A DNA stretch of 64,000 nt, taken from contig NZ_QLNP01000104.1 of NCBI RefSeq assembly GCF_003261175.1, positions 1 to 64,000 of the forward strand. Reading direction: 5' to 3'. Shown piece by piece: positions 40,949-52,000 of the stretch (its first letter is position 1; every line of letters begins with the position of its first letter). This stretch comes from Arthrobacter globiformis. Lineage in GTDB: Bacteria > Actinomycetota > Actinomycetes > Actinomycetales > Micrococcaceae. The notes below the pieces were generated by a model that was given only the letters and a program-made list of their open reading frames with translations, did no database searches and had not been told where the DNA came from. The position numbers were made by a program, and so were the translations under genes.

Positions 40949-41833
40949 TCACCGCCCCAGGACCTGCCGGAGTCCAAACTCCCCCACGGAGAACATCGGC
41001 GGGTTGTCGTCGGAGTTGCTGAGCATCGCGGTGGACAGGACGAGTGCCCAGCCGCGGGCGCGCATCCAGGTGTTCCGGTCCACTGCGGAGCCAAAGGCGC
41101 CGATGAAGCGCTGGCGGGCGCCGGCGTCGAACATCAACCATCCCGCCGCAAGGTCGACGGCGGGATCCCCGGCCCCCACATCGCCAAAGTCGATCACACC
41201 GGCCAGCGACCCGTCAGCGGCCAGCAGAACGTTGGCCGGATGCAGGTCCCCGTGGAGCATCATCGCCGGGCCGTCCCAGACGGGAGCTGCGCAGTACTGC
41301 GCCCATGCCGCCCCCAGCTCCGCCGACTGCGGGTAGCGGTCCCGGTCCGCTAGCCGCTCCAGCACCACCGCGTTCCGATCCATCAGCGGCACCCCGCGGA
41401 CAGGATTCACCGGAACTCCCGTTTCGGCGGGCACGTGGAGCGCCTTGAGAAAGGCGGCCAGGCCGTCAACGGCCGGCGCGCGGTCCGCCGGTCCGGCGTC
41501 CACAGCGGCGGTGCCGGAGACATACCGGACTATGCTCCACGGCCAGGGAAAGTCCGACGCCGGCCGGCCGGCATGGACGGGCACAGGAACCGGAACCGGC
41601 GACCGGCGGGCGATGCCGGGAAGGTACCGCTGCTCGTGCACGATCAGCGGTACTGCCTCGGCCCGGCGGGGCAGCCGGACCGCCAGATCGTCACCGAGCC
41701 GGAAGGTCGCGTTGTCCCAGCCGTTGGCCACCCGCACCAGGGAGCGGCCGGCAAGGTCCGGCCGCTGGTCCCGGATGAGGGCATGGACGACGGCGGCACT
41801 CACCTCCACCGTGGCCGGCGGCATTCCTGCCAT
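40949..41833 (-). CDS. Aminoglycoside phosphotransferase family protein
   Basis: 294 residues, protein-kinase-like fold. Brenner motif HGDLHPANVLL with catalytic D, and VIDFGDVGAGDPAVDLA with metal-binding D. Nucleotide region NATFRLGDDLAVRLPRR. Such proteins phosphorylate antibiotics or, more often in environmental bacteria, metabolites; substrate unknown. Downstream (20 bp) of the IclR gene on the same strand, so it could be a target of its control. Confidence 0.87.
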   Translation of the reverse strand: MAGMPPATVEVSAAVVHALIRDQRPDLAGRSLVRVANGWDNATFRLGDDLAVRLPRRAEAVPLIVHEQRYLPGIARRSPVPVPVPVHAGRPASDFPWPWSIVRYVSGTAAVDAGPADRAPAVDGLAAFLKALHVPAETGVPVNPVRGVPLMDRNAVVLERLADRDRYPQSAELGAAWAQYCAAPVWDGPAMMLHGDLHPANVLLAADGSLAGVIDFGDVGAGDPAVDLAAGWLMFDAGARQRFIGAFGSAVDRNTWMRARGWALVLSTAMLSNSDDNPPMFSVGEFGLRQVLGR

Positions 41834-41853: not shown

Positions 41854-42651
41854 TTAGTAGACGCTGCCCTCCAGCAGTTCAGCGAGCCGGGCTGCAGCGC
41901 GGCGAAGTTCCGGCACCCCTGCCTGGAGCCCCTCCTCGGTGGCCGCCTCCACCGGGCTGGTCAGGGCTACGGATTCGCTGGGCAGCCCTGACCTGCTGAT
42001 TGCCATCGCCACCGAGAGCACTCCGGTGGCGCGCTCATCGGCCGAGTAGGCATAGTCGGTTCCCGGCTCGGGCAGGCGGGCCTTGAGCTCAGCCAGGCTG
42101 AAGCCGGCCTCTTCGTGCCCTGCTGCCACCGCCCCCTTCACCACCTCCTGGAGATGTTCGTCCGGCGCCCCGGCCAGCAGGATTTTGCCGGCGGCGCCGA
42201 CGGTCAGGGGTAGCCGTTTGCCCAGCGGCATGTCATACCGCAGCGGGGCATCGCCGTCGACGCGGACCACCAGGATGCGCTCAAAACCCAGCCTGGTGTA
42301 CAGGGACGCGGTCATTCCGGTCTGCGCCGCCACCTGCTGGAGCACCGGACGCGACACCGTGACCAGCGGATCGTTCTCGATGTAGCTGCGCGCCGCGGGC
42401 AGCACGGCCGGGCCGATCCGGTACGTCTTGTCGGTCTGACTGACCATGCCAAAATCCTGCAGCACGCGCAGGATCCGCAGGGTGGTGGGAAGGCTCATCC
42501 CGCAGTTCCGCGCCAGGTCGCTCAGCCGCTGGGGCCGGTCGGCCCGCTGGAGTTCGGCGAACACCTCCATGGCCCGCGACAGCGAACGCATGTTGGAGGG
42601 CTTGCCGCCATCGTCCGCTGCGGTGCCGGGCTGCGTATTGGTGACCGTCAT
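41854..42651 (-). CDS. IclR-family transcriptional regulator
   Basis: 265 residues. N-terminal winged HTH (SLSRAMEVFAELQRADRPQRLSDLARNCGMSLPTTLRILRVLQDFGMV) and a C-terminal IclR effector domain (PLGKRLPLTVGAAGKILLA). Divergent from the TctBAC operon; a 17-bp site overlaps its own ribosome-binding region and another lies at the operon promoter. Hence it likely represses both genes until an acid ligand binds. Confidence 0.92.
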   Translation of the reverse strand: MTVTNTQPGTAADDGGKPSNMRSLSRAMEVFAELQRADRPQRLSDLARNCGMSLPTTLRILRVLQDFGMVSQTDKTYRIGPAVLPAARSYIENDPLVTVSRPVLQQVAAQTGMTASLYTRLGFERILVVRVDGDAPLRYDMPLGKRLPLTVGAAGKILLAGAPDEHLQEVVKGAVAAGHEEAGFSLAELKARLPEPGTDYAYSADERATGVLSVAMAISRSGLPSESVALTSPVEAATEEGLQAGVPELRRAAARLAELLEGSVY

Positions 42652-42652
42652 T

Positions 42653-42669
42653 CTTTCATTCTATGTAAC
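42653..42669. promoter_or_regulatory. IclR operator copy 1 (autoregulation)
   Basis: CTTTCATTCTATGTAAC, 15 of 17 positions equal to copy 2 at 42738-42754. It begins 2 bp upstream of the IclR start codon and covers its ribosome-binding region, so binding would block the regulator's own expression. Confidence 0.6.
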
Positions 42670-42690
42670 TTCTACGCGCCGCCACCCCGC

Positions 42691-42719
42691 TTGACAGCAC
42701 CTGTGGGCCGTGTCACTAT
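42691..42719 (+). promoter_or_regulatory. Candidate sigma-70-type promoter of tct operon
   Basis: TTGACA (42691-42696) is a perfect -35 box; 17 bp later CACTAT (42714-42719) is a weak -10 match. The predicted start site falls just before operator copy 2, suiting repression by IclR. Confidence 0.4.
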
Positions 42720-42737
42720 TTCTTCTGACGTAAGAGA

Positions 42738-42754
42738 CTTTCATTCTATGAAAG
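42738..42754. promoter_or_regulatory. IclR operator copy 2 (tct operon)
   Basis: CTTTCAT-TCT-ATGAAAG, a perfect 7-bp inverted repeat with a 3-nt spacer, 19 bp before tctB. Same sequence class as copy 1. Confidence 0.65.
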
Positions 42755-42772
42755 CAATTGGAAGGCATTTTG

Positions 42773-43276
42773 ATGACAACGGAGTCGACCATGACCCAGT
42801 CCCCCACCCGGGCGAGGCCAGCGCGCAGCGTCCTGGCCGGGATCGCCGCCGTCGGGGCACTGGGCGCCTACGTACTTGTCAGCTCGGTGGGCCTCGGCCT
42901 GTGGACCTCGCTGGGTCCCGGCCCCGGGCTGTTCCCGTTCGCCATGGGCGCGGTGCTCGCCGCAATGTCGGTCCTGTGGCTGCTTCAGGAGCTCAAGCGC
43001 CCCAGCACAACGGGTGAAGGGGCCGACGGCGGGCTGGTGCTCGCCGTCGTCGTCAGCCTTGTGCTGCTGGCAGCGCTGCTGGACCTGCTCGGCTTCCAGC
43101 TGAGCATGTTCCTCTTCCTGATGTACCACCTGAAGATCCGGGGGAAGCGGGGCTGGCTGTCCGCCCTCCTGACCGCCCTGGCCGGAAGCGTCGGCGCCTT
43201 CTACGCCTTCAACTACGGACTGAACGTGGCCCTGCCTGTCTCATCTATTCCCGTCCTGAACCTGATCGGACTCTAG
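42773..43276 (+). CDS. tctB: Tripartite tricarboxylate transporter small permease (TctB)
   Basis: 167 residues from ATG 42773 (GGAAGG 7 nt upstream). Four membrane helices, e.g. LAGIAAVGALGAYVLVSSVGLG and LVLAVVVSLVLLAALLDLLGF; the loop GPGPGLFPFAMGAVLA is typical of TctB. Membrane partner of TctA in a secondary organic-acid importer. Its stop is 2 bp before tctA. Confidence 0.88.
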   Translation: MTTESTMTQSPTRARPARSVLAGIAAVGALGAYVLVSSVGLGLWTSLGPGPGLFPFAMGAVLAAMSVLWLLQELKRPSTTGEGADGGLVLAVVVSLVLLAALLDLLGFQLSMFLFLMYHLKIRGKRGWLSALLTALAGSVGAFYAFNYGLNVALPVSSIPVLNLIGL

Positions 43277-43278
43277 AC

Positions 43279-44778
43279 ATGGACACCCTCAACGAACTGC
43301 TGAACGGCTTCGCGGCCGCGCTGACCTGGCAGAACCTCATCTTCGCGTTCCTGGGCTGCCTGCTGGGCACCGTGATCGGCGTCCTGCCGGGCATCGGCCC
43401 GGTGGCCGGCGTTGCCCTGCTCATCCCGCTCACGCTGAACATGGACCCGACCGGCTCGATCATCATGCTCTGTGCCATCTTCTACGGCACGGCGTACGGG
43501 GGAACCATCACCAGCGTGCTGCTGAACACCCCGGGTGAGGCGGCATCGGCCATCACCACCATCGACGGCCACGCGATGACAAAGATGGGCAAGGCCGGCG
43601 CGGCCCTGACCATCGCCGCCATCGGCTCCTTCGTCGGCGGCACCATCGCCACCCTCGGACTCGTCGCCGCCGCCAAGCCCCTGGGCGAACTCGGCCTGCT
43701 CGTCGGTCCCCCGGAGTTCTTCGCCCTGATGGTTGTCGGCATCTCCCTGCTCGTGGCGCTGGCCGGCAAATCGATGGTCAAGGCCCTGATCTCCGGAGCC
43801 CTGGGCCTGCTGATCTCGATGGTGGGCATCGACCCCGTCGCCGGCGCACCCCGCTTCACGTTCGGCATGGATCGGCTCCTGGACGGCGTGAGCTTCGTGG
43901 CCGTCATCGTCGGCGTCTTCGGCCTGTCCGAGATCCTGTCCTACCGCAAGGGCGAGTCGACCGTGGTGCACGCCCCCGGTTTCCGTTCGCTGCTGCCCAC
44001 CCGGAACGAATGGCGCCGGAGCGCTCCTTCCATGGCCCGCGGAACCGGCATCGGCTTCGGCCTCGGCCTGATCCCCGGCATGACCGGCTCTGTCGCGTCC
44101 CTGCTCTCCTACGGCGCCGAGAAGAAGTTCTCCAAGCACCGCAACGAACTGGGAAAGGGCGCCGTCGAAGGCGTTGCCGGACCGGAAACGGCCAACAACG
44201 CGCACGCCAACGCCGCGCTCATCCCGCTGTTCACCCTGGGGATCCCCGCCTCGCCCACCATCGCCGTCCTCATGGGCGCCTTCCTCCAGCAGGGCCTGAC
44301 GCCGGGACCGACGCTGTTCACGGAGCACTCCGAAATCGCCTGGGCCATCATCGCCAGCCTCTTCATCGGCAACCTCCTGCTGGTGCTGCTCAACGTCCCC
44401 CTGGTGGGTCTCTGGACCTCGATCCTGCGGGTCCCGGCTCCGATCCTGACCGCGCTGATCCTGCTGTTCATGGTCATCGGCGCCTACACCATCAACTTCA
44501 GCGTCTTCGACGTCTTCGTGATGATCGGCTTCGGCCTGCTGGGCCTGGCCCTTCGGCACCTGGAGATCCCGCTGGCCCCCATGGTCCTCACCCTGGTCCT
44601 GGGCCCGCTGATGGAGCGGTCGCTGCGCGAATCGCTGGAAATCTCCCAGGGTGACTTCAGCATCTTCCTCAACCGCCCCATCTCGGCCGTGCTCATCGCG
44701 CTGGGCCTCCTGATCATCTGCAGCCCGCTGCTGAAGCTCCGCAAGCCCAAGGCCCTGACCGACGACCCGGAAACCTAG
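43279..44778 (+). CDS. tctA: Tripartite tricarboxylate transporter large permease (TctA)
   Basis: 499 residues with about 12 helices. Hallmark N-terminal motif GTVIGVLPGIGPVAGVALLIPLTLNMDP and FYGTAYGGTITSVLLNTPGEAASAITTIDGHAMTKMGKAGAAL, which is highly typical. Moves the substrate delivered by TctC using an ion gradient. The second half repeats the fold (LGLIPGMTGSVASLLSY). Confidence 0.95.
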   Translation: MDTLNELLNGFAAALTWQNLIFAFLGCLLGTVIGVLPGIGPVAGVALLIPLTLNMDPTGSIIMLCAIFYGTAYGGTITSVLLNTPGEAASAITTIDGHAMTKMGKAGAALTIAAIGSFVGGTIATLGLVAAAKPLGELGLLVGPPEFFALMVVGISLLVALAGKSMVKALISGALGLLISMVGIDPVAGAPRFTFGMDRLLDGVSFVAVIVGVFGLSEILSYRKGESTVVHAPGFRSLLPTRNEWRRSAPSMARGTGIGFGLGLIPGMTGSVASLLSYGAEKKFSKHRNELGKGAVEGVAGPETANNAHANAALIPLFTLGIPASPTIAVLMGAFLQQGLTPGPTLFTEHSEIAWAIIASLFIGNLLLVLLNVPLVGLWTSILRVPAPILTALILLFMVIGAYTINFSVFDVFVMIGFGLLGLALRHLEIPLAPMVLTLVLGPLMERSLRESLEISQGDFSIFLNRPISAVLIALGLLIICSPLLKLRKPKALTDDPET

Positions 44779-44835
44779 ACCCCCTCCCGCATTCCCCGCT
44801 AACCAACAAACAAACCTCTTCGAAGGAGAAGACAC

Positions 44836-45837
44836 ATGTCTCGCAAGAAAGTAACCGCGGCCCTTGCCGCAGCCGCCCTGCTCGCGCTCACGGGGTGCGG
44901 TGCCAACGCCGGCGCAACCTCCGCCGCCGGCGAAGACTTCCCCAAGAAGGGCAAGACGATCGACCTCGTCGTCGCATTCTCCTCGGGCGGGGCCGTGGAT
45001 ACCGCAGCCCGCCTGGTCCAGCCCGTGCTGGAGAAGGAACTCGGCACCAACGTCGAGGTCATCAACAAGCCCGGCGCCGGCGGCCAGATCGGCTACACCC
45101 AGCTGACCAGCGCCAAGCCCGACGGCTACACCATCGGCGCCACCGGTTCCCCGTCGGTCGTCGTGTCCCCGCTGGACCCGGCCCGCGGCGCGAAGTACAC
45201 GCGCAGCAGCTTCCAGCCGCTGGGACGCCAGGTCATCGACCCGGCCGTCATCGCCGTCCAGCCGGACAGCCCGTACAAGACGCTGAAGGAACTGCTGGAC
45301 GCGGCCAAGGCCAAGCCCAAGTCCATGACCGCCAGCGCCACCGGACTGCAGACCGGCGAGCACTTCGCCCTGGCCCAGATCCAGGAGACCACCGGCGCCG
45401 AATTCGCACCGGTCCACTTCTCCGAAGGCGCATCGCAGGCCACCACGGCATTCCTCGGCAAGCACGTCGACATCCTCGTGGCCAACGTCAGCGACGTCAC
45501 CGACCTGACGAAGCAGAACAAGGCCCGGGTGCTGGGCATTATGACCGCCGAGCGGTCCCCGTCGCTTCCGGACGTCCCGACGTTCAAGGAAAGCGGTTAC
45601 GACGTCGAAGCCGGTACCGCCCGCGGCTACTCCGCCCCCGCCGGCCTGCCGGACGCCGTCGCCAAGAAGCTCGAAGCCGCCCTCCAGAAAGCCATCGAGG
45701 ACCCGGAGGTCGTCAAGAAGATGAACGACCTCGGCCTGCAGACCAGCTACCTCTCCGGCAAGGACTACGAGACGTTCTGGGCCGGGCAGGAGTCGGACTT
45801 CAAGAAGGTCCTGCCGATGGTGCAGAAAAAAGACTGA
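44836..45837 (+). CDS. tctC: Tripartite tricarboxylate transporter binding lipoprotein (TctC)
   Basis: 333 residues. Lipobox LTGC near residue 20, then FPKKGKTIDLVVAFSSGGAVDTAARLVQPVLEKELGTNV, the usual opening of Bug/TctC proteins, and DVPTFKESGYDVEAGTARGYSAPAG near the C-terminus. Binds a carboxylate outside the membrane; the ligand is not predictable. Strong ribosome-binding site GAAGGAG. Confidence 0.93.
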   Translation: MSRKKVTAALAAAALLALTGCGANAGATSAAGEDFPKKGKTIDLVVAFSSGGAVDTAARLVQPVLEKELGTNVEVINKPGAGGQIGYTQLTSAKPDGYTIGATGSPSVVVSPLDPARGAKYTRSSFQPLGRQVIDPAVIAVQPDSPYKTLKELLDAAKAKPKSMTASATGLQTGEHFALAQIQETTGAEFAPVHFSEGASQATTAFLGKHVDILVANVSDVTDLTKQNKARVLGIMTAERSPSLPDVPTFKESGYDVEAGTARGYSAPAGLPDAVAKKLEAALQKAIEDPEVVKKMNDLGLQTSYLSGKDYETFWAGQESDFKKVLPMVQKKD

Positions 45838-45908
45838 GTCCAGAAGAAGGACGAGCCCACACACACCGCCCGTTCCAGCCCACCAACACCATCAGGGAAG
45901 ACACCGCC

Positions 45909-46535
45909 ATGACCACCCCCGCCCTTCAGGACACCTCCTTTACCCGCCCGGACCAGGAACTGGTCGGCCGGCTGGCCAAGCTGCCTGCCGCGAACATCGG
46001 TGACGCGATGGACCGGCTGGGAGTTGCCGACTCCGCGATCCAGGCGATCTGGCCCGGGGCGAAAATCGCCGGGCCCGCCTTCACGGTCTGGACCCGCCCC
46101 GGGGACAACCAGGGCATCCACGAAGCTCTGAAACTGGCCAAGCCGGGAGATGTCATCGTGGTTTCCGGCGGCGGCGACGAGTCCCGCGCGCTCCTGGGCG
46201 AACTGATCGGCGAGCGCGCCATCAACCTCGGCATCGCCGGCTTCGCACTTGACGGTGCGGCACGCGATGCCGAGGCCCTCGGCGAGATCGGCATGCCGGT
46301 CTTCGCCCGGGCGGTCACCCCTGCAGGCCCGTACAAGAACGGGCCGCACCGCATTGGCGGTCCTGTCGCCTTCGGCGGCGTTCCCGTCCTGCCTGGCGAC
46401 ATCATCATCGGTGACTCCGACGGCGTCGTGGTAATCCCCTCGGAGCAAGCGGAGGCCGTGGCGGAAGCGGCCGAAGCGGTCTTCGCCGACGAAACCAACC
46501 GCCGGGCGTCCATCGTCGCCGCCCGCGGCCAGTAA
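45909..46535 (+). CDS. RraA-family protein (aldolase/decarboxylase type)
   Basis: 208 residues from ATG 45909 (AGGGAAG 8 nt upstream); the much longer open frame before it is a shadow of tctC. RraA/HMG-CHA aldolase fold: LPAANIGDAMDRLG, then GELIGERAINLGIAGFALDGAARDAEAL with the G-E-L and R-D metal-site residues, and GDIIIGDSDGVVVIP. Expected to split or decarboxylate a hydroxy-oxo acid to pyruvate-type products. It is the second such protein in the window. Confidence 0.85.
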   Translation: MTTPALQDTSFTRPDQELVGRLAKLPAANIGDAMDRLGVADSAIQAIWPGAKIAGPAFTVWTRPGDNQGIHEALKLAKPGDVIVVSGGGDESRALLGELIGERAINLGIAGFALDGAARDAEALGEIGMPVFARAVTPAGPYKNGPHRIGGPVAFGGVPVLPGDIIIGDSDGVVVIPSEQAEAVAEAAEAVFADETNRRASIVAARGQ

Positions 46536-46552
46536 GTAAGGAAACACATCCC

Positions 46553-47332
46553 ATGACAAAGTGCACCATCATCGGCCTGGGCGAAGCAGGTGCGGCTTAC
46601 GCGGAAGCACTCGCCGCAGCGGGCCACCAAGTCACCGGGTTTGACCCCGTTGCCGCCGCCACCCCGGCGGGAACCCTGCGGGCAGCCACCGCCGCGGAAG
46701 CCTGCGAGGGCGCAGACGTCGTCCTGGTCCTCACCGGCGCGGCCGCTGCCCGCAGCGTCGCCAAGGAGTGCCTGCCGGTCCTTCCGGCAGGCAGCACCTA
46801 TGCCGACTTCACGTCTTCATCCCCCGCTGTGATGCAGGAGCTCGGCCAGGTGCCCACCCAGGCGAGCTTTGCCGACGTCGCGATCCTTGGGCCCGTCGCC
46901 GCCCTGGGCGCCAAAACGCCGCTCATGGTCAGCGGCCCCGGATCCACCGCGGTGGCGCAGCTGCTGACGCCCCTGTGCGTCGACGTCGAAATTGCTGACG
47001 GCGGGCCGGGGGCGGCCATGTCCCACAAGCTGCTGCGCAGCGTCCTGATGAAGGGCATGGCATCGGTGGTGGTGGAAGCGGTCACCGCCGGCCGGGCGGC
47101 CGGACTGGAAAGCTGGATCCGGGAGCAGATCGCCCGGCAGCTCGCCGGCGACGGCCACGCCGTCATCGACCGGTTCCTCGCAGGAACGTCGAAGCACGCC
47201 GTGCGCAGGTCCCGGGAAATGCAGGACACCGCGGAATACCTGGCCGAGCTCGGCGTCCCCGCGGAAATGACGGAAGCCTCGGCGGCAGCGCTGACGCGGA
47301 TCGCAGCGGCACCGGAGGCCGCCCTGCGCTGA
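46553..47332 (+). CDS. NAD(P)-dependent 6-phosphogluconate-dehydrogenase-like oxidoreductase (DUF1932 type)
   Basis: 259 residues. N-terminal Rossmann CTIIGLGEAGAAYAEALAAAGHQVTGFDP; C-terminal helical region starting GGPGAAMSHKLLRSVLMKGMASVVVEAVTAGRAAGLE, typical of the DUF1932 C-terminal domain of beta-hydroxyacid dehydrogenase relatives. The catalytic lysine of the family is at SHKLLRS. It likely oxidises a hydroxy acid made from the transported substrate. Confidence 0.85.
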   Translation: MTKCTIIGLGEAGAAYAEALAAAGHQVTGFDPVAAATPAGTLRAATAAEACEGADVVLVLTGAAAARSVAKECLPVLPAGSTYADFTSSSPAVMQELGQVPTQASFADVAILGPVAALGAKTPLMVSGPGSTAVAQLLTPLCVDVEIADGGPGAAMSHKLLRSVLMKGMASVVVEAVTAGRAAGLESWIREQIARQLAGDGHAVIDRFLAGTSKHAVRRSREMQDTAEYLAELGVPAEMTEASAAALTRIAAAPEAALR

Positions 47333-47370
47333 ACGCGCATGAGGCAGAATCAATGAACAGGGAGTCAACG

Positions 47371-47415
47371 ATGAATCCGGAAGCAAACCAACACCCCGAA
47401 GGAGCAGCCCGATGA
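47371..47415 (+). other. 14-codon leader ORF before DctM-like gene
   Basis: MNPEANQHPEGAAR with GGGAG 6 nt before the ATG; its TGA overlaps the next ATG (ATGA). Probably a coupling leader or the leftover of a lost small transporter subunit. Could be chance. Confidence 0.3.
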
Positions 47416-48761
47416 TCGGCATCTGGGCACTGGGAGCCTACCTGGCTGTCATCCTGCTCTGGACGACTGTCATCAAGCGCAGTGTGGGCGAAGCGATGCT
47501 CCTAGGGTTCCTCGTTGTCCTTCCGTTTACCGGGGCCGCCGCCCAGACCGGCTGGAACGCGCTCTACGATGCCATCACCGATGAGATCGTGTACGCCACC
47601 ATGGCGTTCGTCTTCATGGGGTACCTGCTGGAGCGGACCGGCGTGCTGGACCGGCTCATCGACCTGCTGAACTCCCTGATCGGCGGAGTCAAGGGCGGCC
47701 CGGCCTGGGTCTCCACTGTCGCGTCGGCCGGCCTGGGCGGCGTGGTGCACAACCAGGCCGCGATCGCCGCCACCGTGGGTTCGGTGACCATCCCGTGGAT
47801 GGAAAGGTCCCGCCTCGACAAGCCATCCGCGGCCACATTGGTAGCGGGCAACGCGGGCATGGGCATCACCTTCCCGTTCAGCGCCTCGATGTTCGTCCTC
47901 GTGGGATCCTCGACTGTCGGGCCGCTGCTGAAGGTCAACGACCTCGTCCTTCCCCTGCTGCTCGGCGGGCTGTGGTGCTTCCTGCACCGCCTGATCGTCA
48001 CCTATGTGCTGATCCGCAAGAGCAACATGGCACCCCTCGATGCGGCCCACCGGACACCCGTCCGCCGGGCCTTCGCCCAGGGCTGGGCCACCATGATCCT
48101 GTTCGTGGTGGTGGCCGTCCCGCTGATCCTCACCTCAGGCGCAATCGCCGATGCTCTGTCGGACTGGACGGGCTCGGACGTGGCCAAGACGGTCAGCGTC
48201 ATCGTCTGGATCCCCGTTGTCCTGATCCTCACGGGACTCATACTGGGACGGAAACGGCTGCCCCGCGGCGGGAAAGCGTACTGGGACTTCCTGCAGCAGT
48301 CCGCGCCGCGCTTCGGCGTCGTCGGCGTTACCGTGGTTTTCGCCTTCGCGGGCGCCAACGCCCTGGCCGCCACCGGGCTGCCCAAGCAGATGACGGCACT
48401 CCTGAACCAGTTCAACCTGCCGCTGTGGCTGCTGGCCATCCTGATCGGCCTGATTGTCATCGCCGTGGCCGCACCCCTGTCCGCGACGGCGACCATGGCC
48501 GCCGTCGGAACCGTGGGCGTGGCCACACTGGTGGCCGCCGGCGTGCCGGCCACCACGGCGGCAGTCGCGGTGCTGGTCTTCTCCTCCTGCGAGGCAGCCG
48601 TGCCGCCCGGCGGCGCTCCGCTTTACGTCGCGTGCGGCATCGCCGACGTAGACCCGTACAAGACGTTTGCCCGCCTGTTCGTCCTCTACGCCCTGCCGCT
48701 GCTGGCCATCGGCGTGCTGATCGCCGTCGGCGTCCTGCCGATCGGTGTCCTGCCTACCTAG
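47412..48761 (+). CDS. TRAP/DctM-like large permease
   Basis: 449 residues, about 12 helices. The segment FVFMGYLLERTGVLDRLIDLLNSLIGGVKGGPAWVSTVASAGLGGVVHNQAAIAATVGSVTIP reproduces the DctM pattern; GITFPFSASMFVLVG and VPPGGAPLYVACGIADVDPY match the second half. No DctP binding protein or ordinary DctQ is encoded here, so it may act alone, with the small protein that follows, or with another binding protein. AAGGAG before the ATG. Confidence 0.82.
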   Translation: MIGIWALGAYLAVILLWTTVIKRSVGEAMLLGFLVVLPFTGAAAQTGWNALYDAITDEIVYATMAFVFMGYLLERTGVLDRLIDLLNSLIGGVKGGPAWVSTVASAGLGGVVHNQAAIAATVGSVTIPWMERSRLDKPSAATLVAGNAGMGITFPFSASMFVLVGSSTVGPLLKVNDLVLPLLLGGLWCFLHRLIVTYVLIRKSNMAPLDAAHRTPVRRAFAQGWATMILFVVVAVPLILTSGAIADALSDWTGSDVAKTVSVIVWIPVVLILTGLILGRKRLPRGGKAYWDFLQQSAPRFGVVGVTVVFAFAGANALAATGLPKQMTALLNQFNLPLWLLAILIGLIVIAVAAPLSATATMAAVGTVGVATLVAAGVPATTAAVAVLVFSSCEAAVPPGGAPLYVACGIADVDPYKTFARLFVLYALPLLAIGVLIAVGVLPIGVLPT

Positions 48762-48773
48762 GGAAGCGTGGAA

Positions 48774-49031
48774 ATGCAGAAGCTACGACACACTACCAAC
48801 GCCGTCTTCGTGATCAGCCTGGCGGTACTCCTCATCGCCGGAATAGTTTTCGTGGCCGGGCAGGCGCTCGCCTTGGTCACCGGGCAGGGCGGGTGGCTCG
48901 CAGTCCTCAACGAAGCCGTCAAGGGCCCGGCGTGCATCGCCGCGTCCGTCTGTGCCCTCGCCGGATTCCTGCTCAGTTACAAGACCTCCGCGAAACAGAA
49001 CAACCCGCAGCAGGAAGCACGCACCCCATGA
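48774..49031 (+). CDS. Small two-helix membrane protein next to DctM-like permease
   Basis: 85 residues from ATG 48774 (GGGAAG 7 nt upstream; an upstream GTG at 48768 is too close to it). Two helices: AVFVISLAVLLIAGIVFVAGQALALV and GPACIAASVCALAGFLLSY. In place of a DctQ-type small subunit it is very short and comes after, not before, the large subunit. Overlaps the cyclase gene by ATGA. Probably a partner of the DctM-like protein. Confidence 0.7.
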   Translation: MQKLRHTTNAVFVISLAVLLIAGIVFVAGQALALVTGQGGWLAVLNEAVKGPACIAASVCALAGFLLSYKTSAKQNNPQQEARTP

Positions 49032-50017
49032 CCTCCACGGAATCCGGCACAACCTATCCGTCCTATGAGGCCCTGCTGGAACGGGAAGGGCGCCTCTCGG
49101 GTACATCCTGGGACCTGTTTCCCGACAGCGACCGCGGCACCCCGTCCTTCATCCGGCCCGATTCCGTCCGGGAAGCCGCGGGCTGCGTCCGGACCGGAAC
49201 CGTCTTCGGCCTCGACTACCCCGCCGACGCCTTCGACCCCGGCATGTCCCTGAAACGGAGGGCTCCGCGGCACACGATCTACTCGGCGCACCCCGCCCAC
49301 CGCGACGATTTCCTCGACGGGTACTACCTGCAGGGCTCCAGCCAGATCGACGGGCTCCGGCACCGCCGGGCGGACGACGTCGGCTTCTACAACGGGACCC
49401 CCGACGACGAGATCCGGGAGGGAACCGCTGCCCTCGGAATCCAGGCCTGGGCCGAGCAGCCCATCGTCGGACGGGGCGTGCTGGTGGATCTCGACGGATA
49501 TTGCCGGGGCCAGGACACGCCGATCGACCATGCGGCCGGGCAGCCTCTTGGGCTTGGCCTGGTTCAGGCCGCAGCCGAGGCCCAGTCTCTGATTCTGCGG
49601 TCCGGCGACATCCTCATGCTGCACACGGGGTGGTCCGAGTGGTTCCTCGCGCTGCCGGCCGGGGAGAAGGAGAGCCTGCGCGCCAGCCGCCGGGCCAGCG
49701 GCATCGAACAATCGGCAGAGTTTGTCGCCTGGGCCTGGGACAACCAGCTTTCCGTCATCGCCGCAGACAACTTCGCCGTGGAGTGCCTGCCGCCGGTCTC
49801 CTCCAGCCCGTTCCGGAGCACGGCGCCCAATGACCACGGCATGATGCACCAGCAGTTGCTCGCAAAGCTCGGCCTGCCGCTGGGGGAACTCTGGCAGCTC
49901 GGCCCGCTCAGCCGGCATATGAAGGCCACCGGCAACTGGGACGCGCTGGTTACCGTGAAACCGCTGAACATCACGGGAGCGACCGGCTCCCCGGCCAACG
50001 CGACAGCGGTGACATAA
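49028..50017 (+). CDS. Cyclase family (kynurenine-formamidase-like) metal hydrolase
   Basis: 329 residues. Cyclase (PF04199-type) motif appears in the variant GYYLQGSSQIDGLRHRR, where the usual H-x-G-T-H-x-D is changed to G-S-S-Q-I-D; IVGRGVLVDLDGYCRGQDTP and DILMLHTGWSEWF fit the fold. The family hydrolyses amides, lactones or cyclic acids; here it may open a lactone or imide to the acid used downstream. Last gene of the operon. Confidence 0.85.
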   Translation: MTSTESGTTYPSYEALLEREGRLSGTSWDLFPDSDRGTPSFIRPDSVREAAGCVRTGTVFGLDYPADAFDPGMSLKRRAPRHTIYSAHPAHRDDFLDGYYLQGSSQIDGLRHRRADDVGFYNGTPDDEIREGTAALGIQAWAEQPIVGRGVLVDLDGYCRGQDTPIDHAAGQPLGLGLVQAAAEAQSLILRSGDILMLHTGWSEWFLALPAGEKESLRASRRASGIEQSAEFVAWAWDNQLSVIAADNFAVECLPPVSSSPFRSTAPNDHGMMHQQLLAKLGLPLGELWQLGPLSRHMKATGNWDALVTVKPLNITGATGSPANATAVT

Positions 50018-50128: not shown

Positions 50129-51016
50129 TCAGGCTTCGGGGATCACCATGGCGAAGCGCTCAATGCGGGCCTCGTCCGGGTCCGGTCCGTTGCGCACCCC
50201 GGCGTCGAGTGCGTCGATCGAGGCGAGTTCCTCGGCGCTGAGCTCGAAGTCGAAGACGGCGAAGTTCTCCGCGATGCGTGCCGGGTTGGTCGATTTCGGG
50301 ATCGCCGAGCGGCCCTGCTGCAGGTGCCAGCGCAGCATCACCTGGGCAGGGCTCTTGCCGTGTGCGTGCCCGATAGCGGCGATCGCGGGGTCTTCCATCA
50401 CGTTGCGGCGGTCCTCGCCCCAGCCGGGGTAGAAGGTGATGCCGCCGATGGGTGACCAAGCCTGGGTGAGGATGCCGTTTTCGGTGTCGGCTGCCTGGAC
50501 GTCCCGCTGGGTGAAATAGGGGTGCAGCTCGATCTGGTTCACCGCCGGGACGATGTGGGTAGCGGCGAGCAGCTGTTCCAGGTGGTGCGGCATGAAGTTG
50601 CTGACGCCGATCGCCCGGACGCGCCCGTCAGCGAGCAGGGTCTCCAGCGCCTTGTACCCCGCGATGGTTTTCTCGAACCGGTCGGGTGCCGGCTGGTGCA
50701 GAATGAGCAGGTCGAGGTAGTCGACGCCGAGCTTGCCCACTGCTTTCTCCCAGGCATGCAGGGTCTCGTCGTAGCCGTAGTCGCTGACCCACACCTTGGT
50801 CTCGATGAACACGTCCCCCCGATCGACCCCGGAACTGCGGATGCCTTCGCCGACCTCCCGTTCGTTGCCGTACGCGGCGGCGGTGTCGATGTGCCGGTAG
50901 CCGGCCGCCAGCGCGGCCTCGACCGCCGCCGTCGTCTGCTCCTGAGGGCTTTGGAAAACGCCCAGACCGAGGGCGGGCATCGTGATGCCGTTGTTGAGTG
51001 TAAGTTCAGGTTTCAT
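50129..51016 (-). CDS. Aldo/keto reductase
   Basis: 295 residues from ATG 51016. Start MKPELTLNNGITMPALGLGVFQ, catalytic Y in DTAAAYGNE, K in ETKVWVSD, H in LLILHQPAP: the complete AKR triad, and the NADPH-binding AIPKSTNPARIAEN at the C-terminus. NADPH-dependent reduction of carbonyls, 2,5-diketo-D-gluconate reductase-like. A GGAGG sits only 1 nt before the ATG, so a slightly different start is possible. The gene is divergent from a MmyB-like regulator. Confidence 0.9.
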   Translation of the reverse strand: MKPELTLNNGITMPALGLGVFQSPQEQTTAAVEAALAAGYRHIDTAAAYGNEREVGEGIRSSGVDRGDVFIETKVWVSDYGYDETLHAWEKAVGKLGVDYLDLLILHQPAPDRFEKTIAGYKALETLLADGRVRAIGVSNFMPHHLEQLLAATHIVPAVNQIELHPYFTQRDVQAADTENGILTQAWSPIGGITFYPGWGEDRRNVMEDPAIAAIGHAHGKSPAQVMLRWHLQQGRSAIPKSTNPARIAENFAVFDFELSAEELASIDALDAGVRNGPDPDEARIERFAMVIPEA

Positions 51017-51118
51017 GCCTCCAATGCAACCGTGATTTCCCAGGGGCCGGGAGTTCCTGTCGTTCCGGGTAACGCCAGTGCCTCCCTCGCTCCGGGACCG
51101 CCGCGTAGCGTTGGTGCC

Positions 51119-52000
51119 ATGACACACAGCGACGACGTGCGGAAATTCCTGACCTCCCGGCGGGCCAGGATCACGCCCGACGAAGCCGGCTTACCGGTCT
51201 ACGGCGGGAACCGGCGCGTCGCCGGGCTGCGCCGCGAGGAAGTCGCCATGCTCGCCGGAATGAGCATCGATTACTACATCCGCCTGGAGCGCGGAAACCT
51301 CTCCGGCGCCTCGGACAGCGTCATCGAGGCACTCGCCCGGGCCCTGAAGCTCGACGACGCCGAAACGGCCCACCTCTCCGACCTTGCCCGTGCGGCCACC
51401 GCCTCCCCCCGCGTGCGGCGCAAACGCAGCCCCCAGACAGTACGGCCGAGCGTGCAGCGGGTCATAGATGCGATTACGACGGCGCCGGCCTGGGTCCGCA
51501 ACGACCGCGGGGATGTCCTGGCCGCCAACGAACTCGGCCGGGCGCTGTACCTGGACCTGATGGCGGAACAGGTCACCCCGCCGAACAGCGCGCGCTTCAC
51601 CTTCCTGAACCCGAAGGCGCGGAAGTTCTTTGCCGACTGGGAGCGCGCCGCGGACGACATCGTCGCGGTCCTGCGCTCCACCGCGGGGAAGAACCCCTAC
51701 GACAAGGACCTCACGGATCTGATTGGTGAGCTCTCGACCCGCAGCGAGGAGTTCCGCATCCGGTGGGCCCGGCACGACGTGAAGTACCACCGCACCGGCC
51801 GCAAACAGCTCCACCACCCGGTCGTCGGGGACCTGGACCTGAGCTTCGAGGCGCTCGAGCTCCCCGCTGACCCCGGGCTGCGGATCAACGTGTACACGGC
51901 AGAGCCCGGGACCCCGTCCGAGGATGCGCTGAAAGTCCTCGCGAGCTGGGCCGCCACCCAACGGGCAACGGCAGAAATCCCCGTTGAGGAGAAGAAGTAA
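51119..52000 (+). CDS. XRE-family regulator with MmyB-like ligand domain
   Basis: 293 residues from ATG 51119. HTH (RVAGLRREEVAMLAGMSIDYYIRLERGNLSGASDSVIEALARAL) followed by the MmyB-type PAS-like domain (PAWVRNDRGDVLAANELGRALY ... FLNPKARKFFADW). This group in actinobacteria often regulates an adjacent oxidoreductase gene; the divergent aldo/keto reductase 102 bp away is the probable target. Confidence 0.9.
   Translation: MTHSDDVRKFLTSRRARITPDEAGLPVYGGNRRVAGLRREEVAMLAGMSIDYYIRLERGNLSGASDSVIEALARALKLDDAETAHLSDLARAATASPRVRRKRSPQTVRPSVQRVIDAITTAPAWVRNDRGDVLAANELGRALYLDLMAEQVTPPNSARFTFLNPKARKFFADWERAADDIVAVLRSTAGKNPYDKDLTDLIGELSTRSEEFRIRWARHDVKYHRTGRKQLHHPVVGDLDLSFEALELPADPGLRINVYTAEPGTPSEDALKVLASWAATQRATAEIPVEEKK

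Follow-up and report, generated by a model that had tools for sequence, protein, structure and literature searches.

A conserved Arthrobacter operon with two carriers, a DUF1932 dehydrogenase and an RraA-family protein, a candidate pathway for a hydroxylated carboxylate

A run of nine genes at 41854-50017 is described here from a stretch of 64,000 nucleotides of Arthrobacter globiformis (NCBI RefSeq assembly GCF_003261175.1, contig NZ_QLNP01000104.1, positions 1 to 64,000 of the forward strand), the whole of which is called the window. A gene for an IclR-family regulator lies on the minus strand, and after the iclR-tctB gap follow, on the plus strand, tctB, tctA, tctC, rraA, dh (the DUF1932 dehydrogenase), dctM, tm2 and a cyclase-family gene. 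All nine are intact open reading frames (ORFs), and their families were assigned by Pfam, each above its cut-off except tm2. The successive plus-strand gaps from tctB to the cyclase gene are 2, 57, 71, 17, 79, 12 and -4 bp, the stop of tm2 being overlapped by the start of the cyclase gene. Starts were refined to ATG 42773 for tctB, 45909 for rraA, 48774 for tm2 (GTG 48768 is possible) and 49028 for the cyclase gene. A first-pass annotation of this DNA had described such a run, on one strand with short gaps and overlaps and divergent from iclR, and the intact frames and Pfam assignments bear it out. TTT below stands for tripartite tricarboxylate transporter. The features are:

41854..42651, minus strand: IclR-family regulator, 265 aa (Pfam IclR_C 1.8e-18, HTH_IclR 4.2e-12)
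42653..42669, no strand: palindrome copy 2, imperfect, adjoining the iclR start (2 mismatches to CTTTCATNNNATGAAAG)
42738..42754, no strand: perfect palindrome CTTTCATTCTATGAAAG upstream of tctB, probable IclR operator
42773..43276, plus strand: tctB, small membrane subunit of the TTT, 167 aa (Pfam TctB 1.6e-20, 74 bits)
43279..44778, plus strand: tctA, large membrane subunit of the TTT, 499 aa (Pfam TctA 1.1e-148, 496 bits)
44836..45837, plus strand: tctC, solute receptor of the TTT, 333 aa, lipobox LTGC (Pfam TctC 4e-47, 162 bits)
45909..46535, plus strand: RraA-family protein, class II pyruvate aldolase/decarboxylase-like, 208 aa (Pfam RraA-like 8.8e-46, 156 bits)
46553..47332, plus strand: DUF1932 dehydrogenase-like protein (dh), 259 aa (Pfam DUF1932 7.4e-12, 46 bits; NAD_binding_2 9.7e-10)
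47412..48761, plus strand: DctM-like permease without binding protein, 449 aa (Pfam DctM PF06808 2.3e-41, 142.5 bits, cut-off 23.8)
48774..49031, plus strand: two-helix membrane protein (tm2), 85 aa (no Pfam or NCBIfam match; two hydrophobic segments)
49028..50017, plus strand: cyclase-family PF04199 hydrolase-like protein, 329 aa (Pfam 8.3e-09, 36.2 bits, cut-off 23.1)

The arrangement recurs in relatives. A permease scan of the named genomes yielded 49 loci, L022-L070, of which 37 have tctBAC. The dehydrogenase and cyclase genes are present in all 37; rraA in L041 and dctM in L064 were not found at full length, and both were recovered in pieces. The order from tctB to the cyclase gene is kept in 35 of the 37 loci; the exceptions, L048 and L051, have their TTT genes on the opposite strand, so the TTT and the enzyme-permease genes must be separate transcripts there. 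Twelve loci are without TTT (L028, L030, L055, L057, L060-L063, L065, L066, L068 and L070), its absence meaning little in L065, L066 and L068, which are on contigs of 4.9-11 kb. A sample of 61 genomes of the genus was also searched with the tctA, dh, dctM and cyclase proteins. Orthologues of all four are common to the same 18 genomes, some in two pieces, at identities of at least 88% for tctA, 78% for dh, 82% for dctM and 68% for the cyclase, and an orthologous tctA without dctM occurs in none of the 61. Beyond the 18, dctM is also found in G009 and the cyclase gene in G009 and G465, with cyclase fragments in G451 and G452; the dctM match of G473 is of 43% identity only. The two samples overlap and are not independent counts (G009 is the genome of L028, G002 that of L023 and G473 that of L066, among others). 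Comparison of neighbourhoods in relatives, which the first-pass annotation had proposed, thus returned the same gene order and a near all-or-nothing presence in the genus. The cyclase fragments (74-75% identical), at L107:7282-7617 and at G452:C1:4202407-4202739 (L106), occur without the other three searched proteins and are probably remnants of operon loss. The flanking genes, which we take to be phosphotransferase-like (40949-41833) and aldo/keto-reductase-like (50129-51127), have relatives at 70% coverage in 5/49 and 2/49 loci, respectively.

Packing and joint conservation support the earlier suggestion that one gene unit serves the uptake and degradation of a hydroxy- or oxo-acid. Alternatively, TTT-rraA-dh and dctM-tm2-cyclase could be functionally separate modules merely placed in tandem. 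The 79-bp gap between dh and dctM would fit such a division, as would L028, which has the second module alone behind palindromes, and L061, L062, L066, L068 and L070, where dctM and the two-helix gene occur without dh and rraA. However, the modules are jointly present in 18/61 genus genomes, and dh and rraA adjoin dctM and the two-helix gene without TTT in L055, L057, L060, L063 and L099. The dh-dctM gap also holds no plus-strand terminator-like or promoter-like site, in a scan whose signal is little above chance: it gave 6 terminator-like sites, compared with 3.8 in shuffles, 2 of them on the plus strand within tctB and tm2, and no promoter-like site. Separate modules are accordingly very improbable.

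The closest NCBIfam models for the IclR protein are PcaR/PcaU/PobR and BhcR, both far under cut-off. The palindrome TTTCATTCTATGAAA occurs twice within the iclR-tctB gap, where chance would give 0.02 matches per window. A repeated palindromic site at both the regulator and the target promoter is what marks an IclR regulon, and the palindrome is probably the operator of this regulator, a function that we infer from the sequence. The exact TTTCATNNNATGNAA is found in the genome only at the two operon sites. With at most one mismatch it gives 19 strand matches genome-wide, 4 at the operon and 15 at 13 other places, compared with 6 for the backward control with one mismatch. Six of the 13 off-operon places were viewed by eye in ORF lists, and no pathway genes were evident there. 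One near-copy, with one mismatch (matched on both strands) and symmetric except at a single base, lies at G000:C32:126187-126201 (L076), at the start of an ORF that we take to encode a FUSC-like membrane protein; it is a possible second target of the regulator. Among the 49 loci, a pair of sites close together upstream of the operon, each with at most two mismatches to TTTCATNNNATGAAA, is found in 34, including L028 and L030, which are without TTT. The spacing is 89 bp in L048 and L051 and 73-86 bp in the other 32. An additional palindrome lies between iclR and rraA in L051, so that both separated units there would share one regulator; its counterpart in L048 has three mismatches.

The dehydrogenase combines an N-terminal NAD-binding domain, a DUF1932 domain and a conserved Lys, as do beta-hydroxyacid dehydrogenases, in which this Lys has a catalytic role. 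A PDB relative is 3qsg (5.5e-24), and the motif K-L-[LIV]-R-S is present in 43/43 relatives, fusions included. In L055, L060, L063, L065 and L099 the dehydrogenase and RraA form one ORF of a predicted 449-537 aa; both domains were recognized by Pfam in L099, the only fusion run. Four of these five loci have no TTT in the available stretch, L065 being too short to judge. Fusion is strong evidence that the two proteins act in consecutive steps. A PDB relative of RraA is 3noj (1.2e-28), a 4-hydroxy-4-methyl-2-oxoglutarate/4-carboxy-4-hydroxy-2-oxoadipate (HMG/CHA) aldolase. Residues were mapped in 42 RraA relatives, four of them fusions and one probably a paralogue (L030, 62%), with the P. putida HMG/CHA aldolase as reference and residue roles as given in PMC5065237. 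Arg40, Asn71, Gly101, Arg123, Asp124, Gly144, Lys147 and Glu199 are kept in 42/42 and His75 in 40/42. The catalytic Arg123 and the metal ligands Asp124 and Glu199 are thus kept in 42/42 relatives, and also in 5/5 fusions (four in both counts). The fusion in five loci and the kept active site bear out the earlier proposal that dehydrogenase and RraA act in succession.

Similar genes also occur in other company. A second dehydrogenase/RraA pair (53% and 62-65% identical) lies at L030:15231-21334 in Arthrobacter with ABC-importer-like ORFs, an HD-domain protein and another IclR, and the same contig has a further rraA beside an aldehyde-dehydrogenase-like ORF. Close to the permease locus of A. liuii lies a group of three: a DUF1932 protein, a CoA-transferase-like ORF and an HMGL-like lyase (L028:3383-6406).

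Farther afield, the annotation of 14 plasmid regions containing DUF1932 relatives was examined; a fifteenth region, unannotated, was not used. In 11 of the 14 there is a gene of the RraA family or for a CHA aldolase, and in 8/14 ring-cleavage or 4-oxalomesaconate genes occur as well (Thermus, A. vitis, R. daejeonense, Thioclava, Acidovorax, Sphingopyxis, P. oryzihabitans and Rhizobium Q54). The transporters near these DUF1932 genes are of ABC, TRAP (tripartite ATP-independent periplasmic; P, Q and M), cation:dicarboxylate symporter, citrate symporter and SLC13-like types, with TTT in R. daejeonense and Azospirillum TSH58. Within the genus, dehydrogenases 40-43% identical lie near RraA relatives, PrpF-family and glyoxalase-fold genes (L092-L094, Pfam on L094), and others, 29-33% identical, occur with LigB-type genes (L095-L097, Pfam on L097). 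The window's genome has one PrpF-family match, away from the operon. It has no match to LigB, the one ring-cleavage family searched, so that the acid is presumably imported and not made by LigB-type ring cleavage.

On balance, the operon is probably an IclR-controlled catabolic unit for an imported hydroxylated di- or tricarboxylate, with two carriers, in which oxidation is followed by cleavage to pyruvate by RraA. The TTT (TctC as receptor, with TctBA) and the DctM-like permease with its two-helix partner would import a common substrate, or else the lactone and acid forms of it. The cyclase-family protein would open a lactone (or an ester or amide) form, the NAD-binding DUF1932 dehydrogenase would oxidize a hydroxyl to give a 2-oxo acid, and RraA, of the class II pyruvate aldolase type, would cleave this to pyruvate and an oxo acid. 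A substrate suited to all three enzyme steps would be a 2,4-dihydroxy di- or tricarboxylate. 2,4-Dihydroxy acids lactonize easily to gamma-lactones, and their oxidation gives 4-hydroxy-2-oxo acids. The substrate class, the order of the steps and the direction of transport are those that we infer for the set of genes as a whole. An apiose-type sugar-acid pathway was considered as a candidate and set aside; a literature search for it gave unrelated papers only.

A number of observations weigh against this scheme. In RraA, Asp102 is replaced by Glu in 41/42 relatives (Asp in L030), Thr145 by Pro in 42/42, and Arg195 by Val in 37, Lys in 3 and Ile in 2, and the protein falls under the NCBIfam CHA-aldolase cut-offs (PRK09262, 145.1 vs 179; ligK_PcmE, 134.4 vs 304.5). 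With the core residues kept and positions 102, 145 and 195 changed, the pyruvate-enolate chemistry is likely kept and the substrate is probably different. RraA is common without DUF1932: only 2 of the 1077 plasmid records matching a fusion query cover 80%, two RraA plasmid regions that were viewed list no DUF1932 gene, and three of the 14 DUF1932 regions (Methylobacterium, Roseinatronobacter and A. brasilense) have no RraA gene. TTT and DctM are separable, DctM being retained without TTT in L028 and L030, and L105 (G465) retains iclR, tctB and the cyclase gene, the middle being lost. The paired palindrome is missing in 15/49 loci, including the most distant ones; these are L047 (three sites, wider spacing), L050 (contig start, one site), L053-L057, L060-L063, L065, L066, L068 and L070. 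No cyclase gene was found in L060 and L063, so the cyclase is not essential to the core. The DctM/two-helix pair stands beside a CoA-transferase III and an HpcH/HpaI lyase in L062 and beside a seven-bladed lactonase and a class II aldolase in L066 (all by Pfam), neighbours from which its substrates appear to vary; the neighbourhoods of L061 and L068 look alike by eye.

The same operon logic would also accommodate a different last step, in which a malate-type hydroxy acid is oxidized by the dehydrogenase to a beta-oxo acid of the oxaloacetate type and then decarboxylated by RraA, which would not be an aldolase. The CoA-transferase III and HpcH/HpaI lyase beside the L062 permease form an arrangement as for malate-like acids, and RraA has an unchanged catalytic core but different residues at positions 145 and 195. 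According to PMC5065237, HMG/CHA aldolases also act as oxaloacetate decarboxylases, by way of the same pyruvate enolate. On the other hand, ring-cleavage operons bring DUF1932 relatives together with CHA aldolases, and the aldolase substrate there is a 4-hydroxy-2-oxo acid. A decarboxylase is therefore rather unlikely, and cleavage to pyruvate remains the step that we favor for RraA.

The two carriers differ in kind. TctA, TctB and TctC are all present by Pfam, which makes the first a TTT; BugD, Bug27 and a terephthalate-binding protein are among the PDB relatives of TctC. About 45 kb off on the same contig, beyond the window, is another TctA gene (39% identical; G000:C73:90182-91645). For the second, a profile of the permease ranks TRAP permeases first in PDB, all other matches having E values of 0.012 or worse, and the protein fails the NCBIfam dctM subfamily TIGR00786 (70.4 bits vs a cut-off of 268.45). 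The single DctP match and the single DctQ match of the genome are both on contig C46, beside its best DctM match. Neither is found elsewhere in the genome, operon included; no TAXI-type receptor is recognized by Pfam among the operon proteins, this type not having been searched genome-wide. A review treats DctQ as essential and the characterized TRAP systems as dependent on a binding protein (PMC5812351). Failing the criteria that define a TRAP transporter, the permease would be classed as a TRAP-related secondary carrier and not a TRAP transporter.

The permease is nevertheless not alone. A two-helix ORF lies directly 3′ of dctM in 48/48 loci with downstream DNA present, 45 of them by ORF scan (the start being cut short in L058), L054 and L063 by reading the sequence and L064 by tblastn; L065, whose contig ends inside dctM, is outside the count. 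L099, of the same class, has such an ORF after dctM too. In an alignment of 19 relatives with the window protein, identity to the latter is 19-62%, and Phe12, Gly23 and Gln30 are invariant. The small TRAP subunit DctQ has four transmembrane segments; no likeness of tm2 was found to the DctQ of the genome (hhalign probability 0.3, single-sequence template) or to TctB (single-sequence comparison), and a profile search of PDB gave only matches of E 0.15 or worse. The first-pass annotation had spoken of a lone DctM lacking DctP. The absence of DctP holds, its sole genome match being on C46 (TAXI-type receptors apart); "lone" does not, given the constant partner.

We tentatively suggest, as a possibility falling a little short of an even chance, that the DctM-like permease and its two-helix partner are the two subunits of an undescribed class of TRAP-type carrier, independent of a binding protein, for hydroxylated carboxylates, scattered in Actinomycetota and coupled to a dehydrogenase-aldolase pathway, sometimes as one fused enzyme, for an as yet unnamed acid. 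At E <=1e-30 the permease subfamily is found in 3/396 genomes of the phylum, the window's own included, in a search that scored up to 4 candidates in each genome. The pair accompanies dh and RraA without TTT in L055, L057, L060, L063 and L099, and in the last four it is the sole transporter recognized near them by eye among the ORFs listed. A weaker pair in Nonomuraea (dctM 45%, tm2 35% over 40 residues) follows an ORF that looks CoA-transferase-like by eye. In Rothia aerolata (L055:8334-11577), two DctM-like permeases, 39% and 65% identical to that of the window, stand in tandem, preceded by the dh-RraA fusion; the first is followed by a small ORF with weak likeness (21%) to tm2, the second by a two-helix ORF.

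Two carriers within one operon call for explanation, and the DctM/two-helix pair might instead export an end product or exchange it for the TTT substrate, the two systems carrying different compounds. An exporter needs no binding protein, and the start of the cyclase gene overlaps the stop of tm2. However, an importer is needed in L057, L060, L063 and L099, where the pair is the only transporter recognized by eye near dh and RraA among the ORFs listed, and DUF1932 genes elsewhere accompany many transporter types. Export or exchange is improbable on these grounds, and the earlier idea that the DctM protein takes a second substrate or exports a product is not favored; import by both carriers is retained here.

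The history of the two carriers can be approached through a permease tree of 48 rows, from which L058, L064 and L065 were omitted, their dctM being short, in pieces or cut. The presence of TTT requires 4 changes on this tree. A starred group separate from the rows with TTT is made up of L060, L063 and L099, in which dh-RraA is fused and TTT absent. Rows with TTT enclose L028 and L030, where TTT was evidently lost; L055 and L057, which have no TTT either, lie among or beside such rows, which makes further losses likely. The simplest reading, a tentative one, would be an older core of dh, RraA, dctM and tm2 that TTT joined later, so that the DctM and two-helix proteins may be the older importer and TTT an addition. 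The age order is tentative because the root is the midpoint of the drawing and several branches are long (L070, L066/L068).

The cyclase step is the weakest part of the proposed mechanism, and the opening of a cyclic precursor by this protein is plausible. Its PDB relative is 5ibz (7.5e-26, query residues 27-328), an uncharacterized protein. The motif Q-[GS]-[ST]-[ST]-Q-[IV]-D-G-L-R-H is present in 40/41 relatives, L057 being unmatched by the search pattern, and the equivalent motif of 5ibz reads QGSTQWDALSH. The metal motif of kynurenine formamidase, HxGTHxDxPxH, is absent from the window cyclase. Cyclase relatives of 36-38% identity also lie at L101:3243-10504, and in L100 and L103, with a CoA-transferase, a mandelate-racemase-like ORF, a zinc alcohol dehydrogenase, a short-chain dehydrogenase/reductase and a thiolase (Pfam on L101), perhaps an unnamed alicyclic-acid pathway. 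A distant relative on a Rhodococcus plasmid is near ring-hydroxylating and catechol dioxygenase genes.

The component families are known, and what appears new is their combination. No description of the gene combination, the DctM/two-helix pair or the dh-RraA fusion was found in literature titles and abstract starts, a body that does not cover most subscription journals. The first-pass remark that no described pathway with this set was known to its author stands to that extent, and has to give way in part, with TTT, RraA or CHA aldolase, and DUF1932 recurring together in Azospirillum and Rhizobium. A DctM relative without DctQ or a binding protein and with a constant two-helix partner would offer a natural minimal system for asking about the roles of DctQ and DctP. 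The dh-RraA fusion, with DUF1932 genes beside CHA aldolases, points to a dehydrogenase step, so far unassigned, close to a central node in the breakdown of aromatic acids. The conserved palindrome and the near all-or-nothing inheritance make the substrate findable by growth or induction screens in Arthrobacter.

Several known systems resemble parts of this operon. The TTT of the window has all three subunits of TctABC and differs only in the genes that accompany it. With TRAP systems (DctPQM) the operon shares a permease that matches Pfam DctM and the TRAP permeases in PDB, but it is without DctP or DctQ and has a constant two-helix partner unlike the DctQ of its genome. The RraA protein has the catalytic and metal residues of HMG/CHA aldolases in common and differs by D102E, T145P and R195V. 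The protocatechuate 4,5-cleavage and gallate clusters with DUF1932 (Acidovorax, Sphingopyxis, P. oryzihabitans, Rhizobium, Agrobacterium and Thioclava) share DUF1932 with a CHA aldolase, and the R. daejeonense ring-cleavage cluster has TTT too, whereas the window operon has no ring-cleavage, tautomerase or hydratase gene. The Azospirillum TSH58 cluster (TctC, RraA, dehydrogenase, TctB, TctA) likewise combines TTT, RraA and a DUF1932-like dehydrogenase; it adds a mandelate-racemase-type gene and a CHA aldolase, and over the 14.5 kb examined its annotation lists no gene for a DctM, a two-helix protein or a cyclase, all of which the operon described here has.

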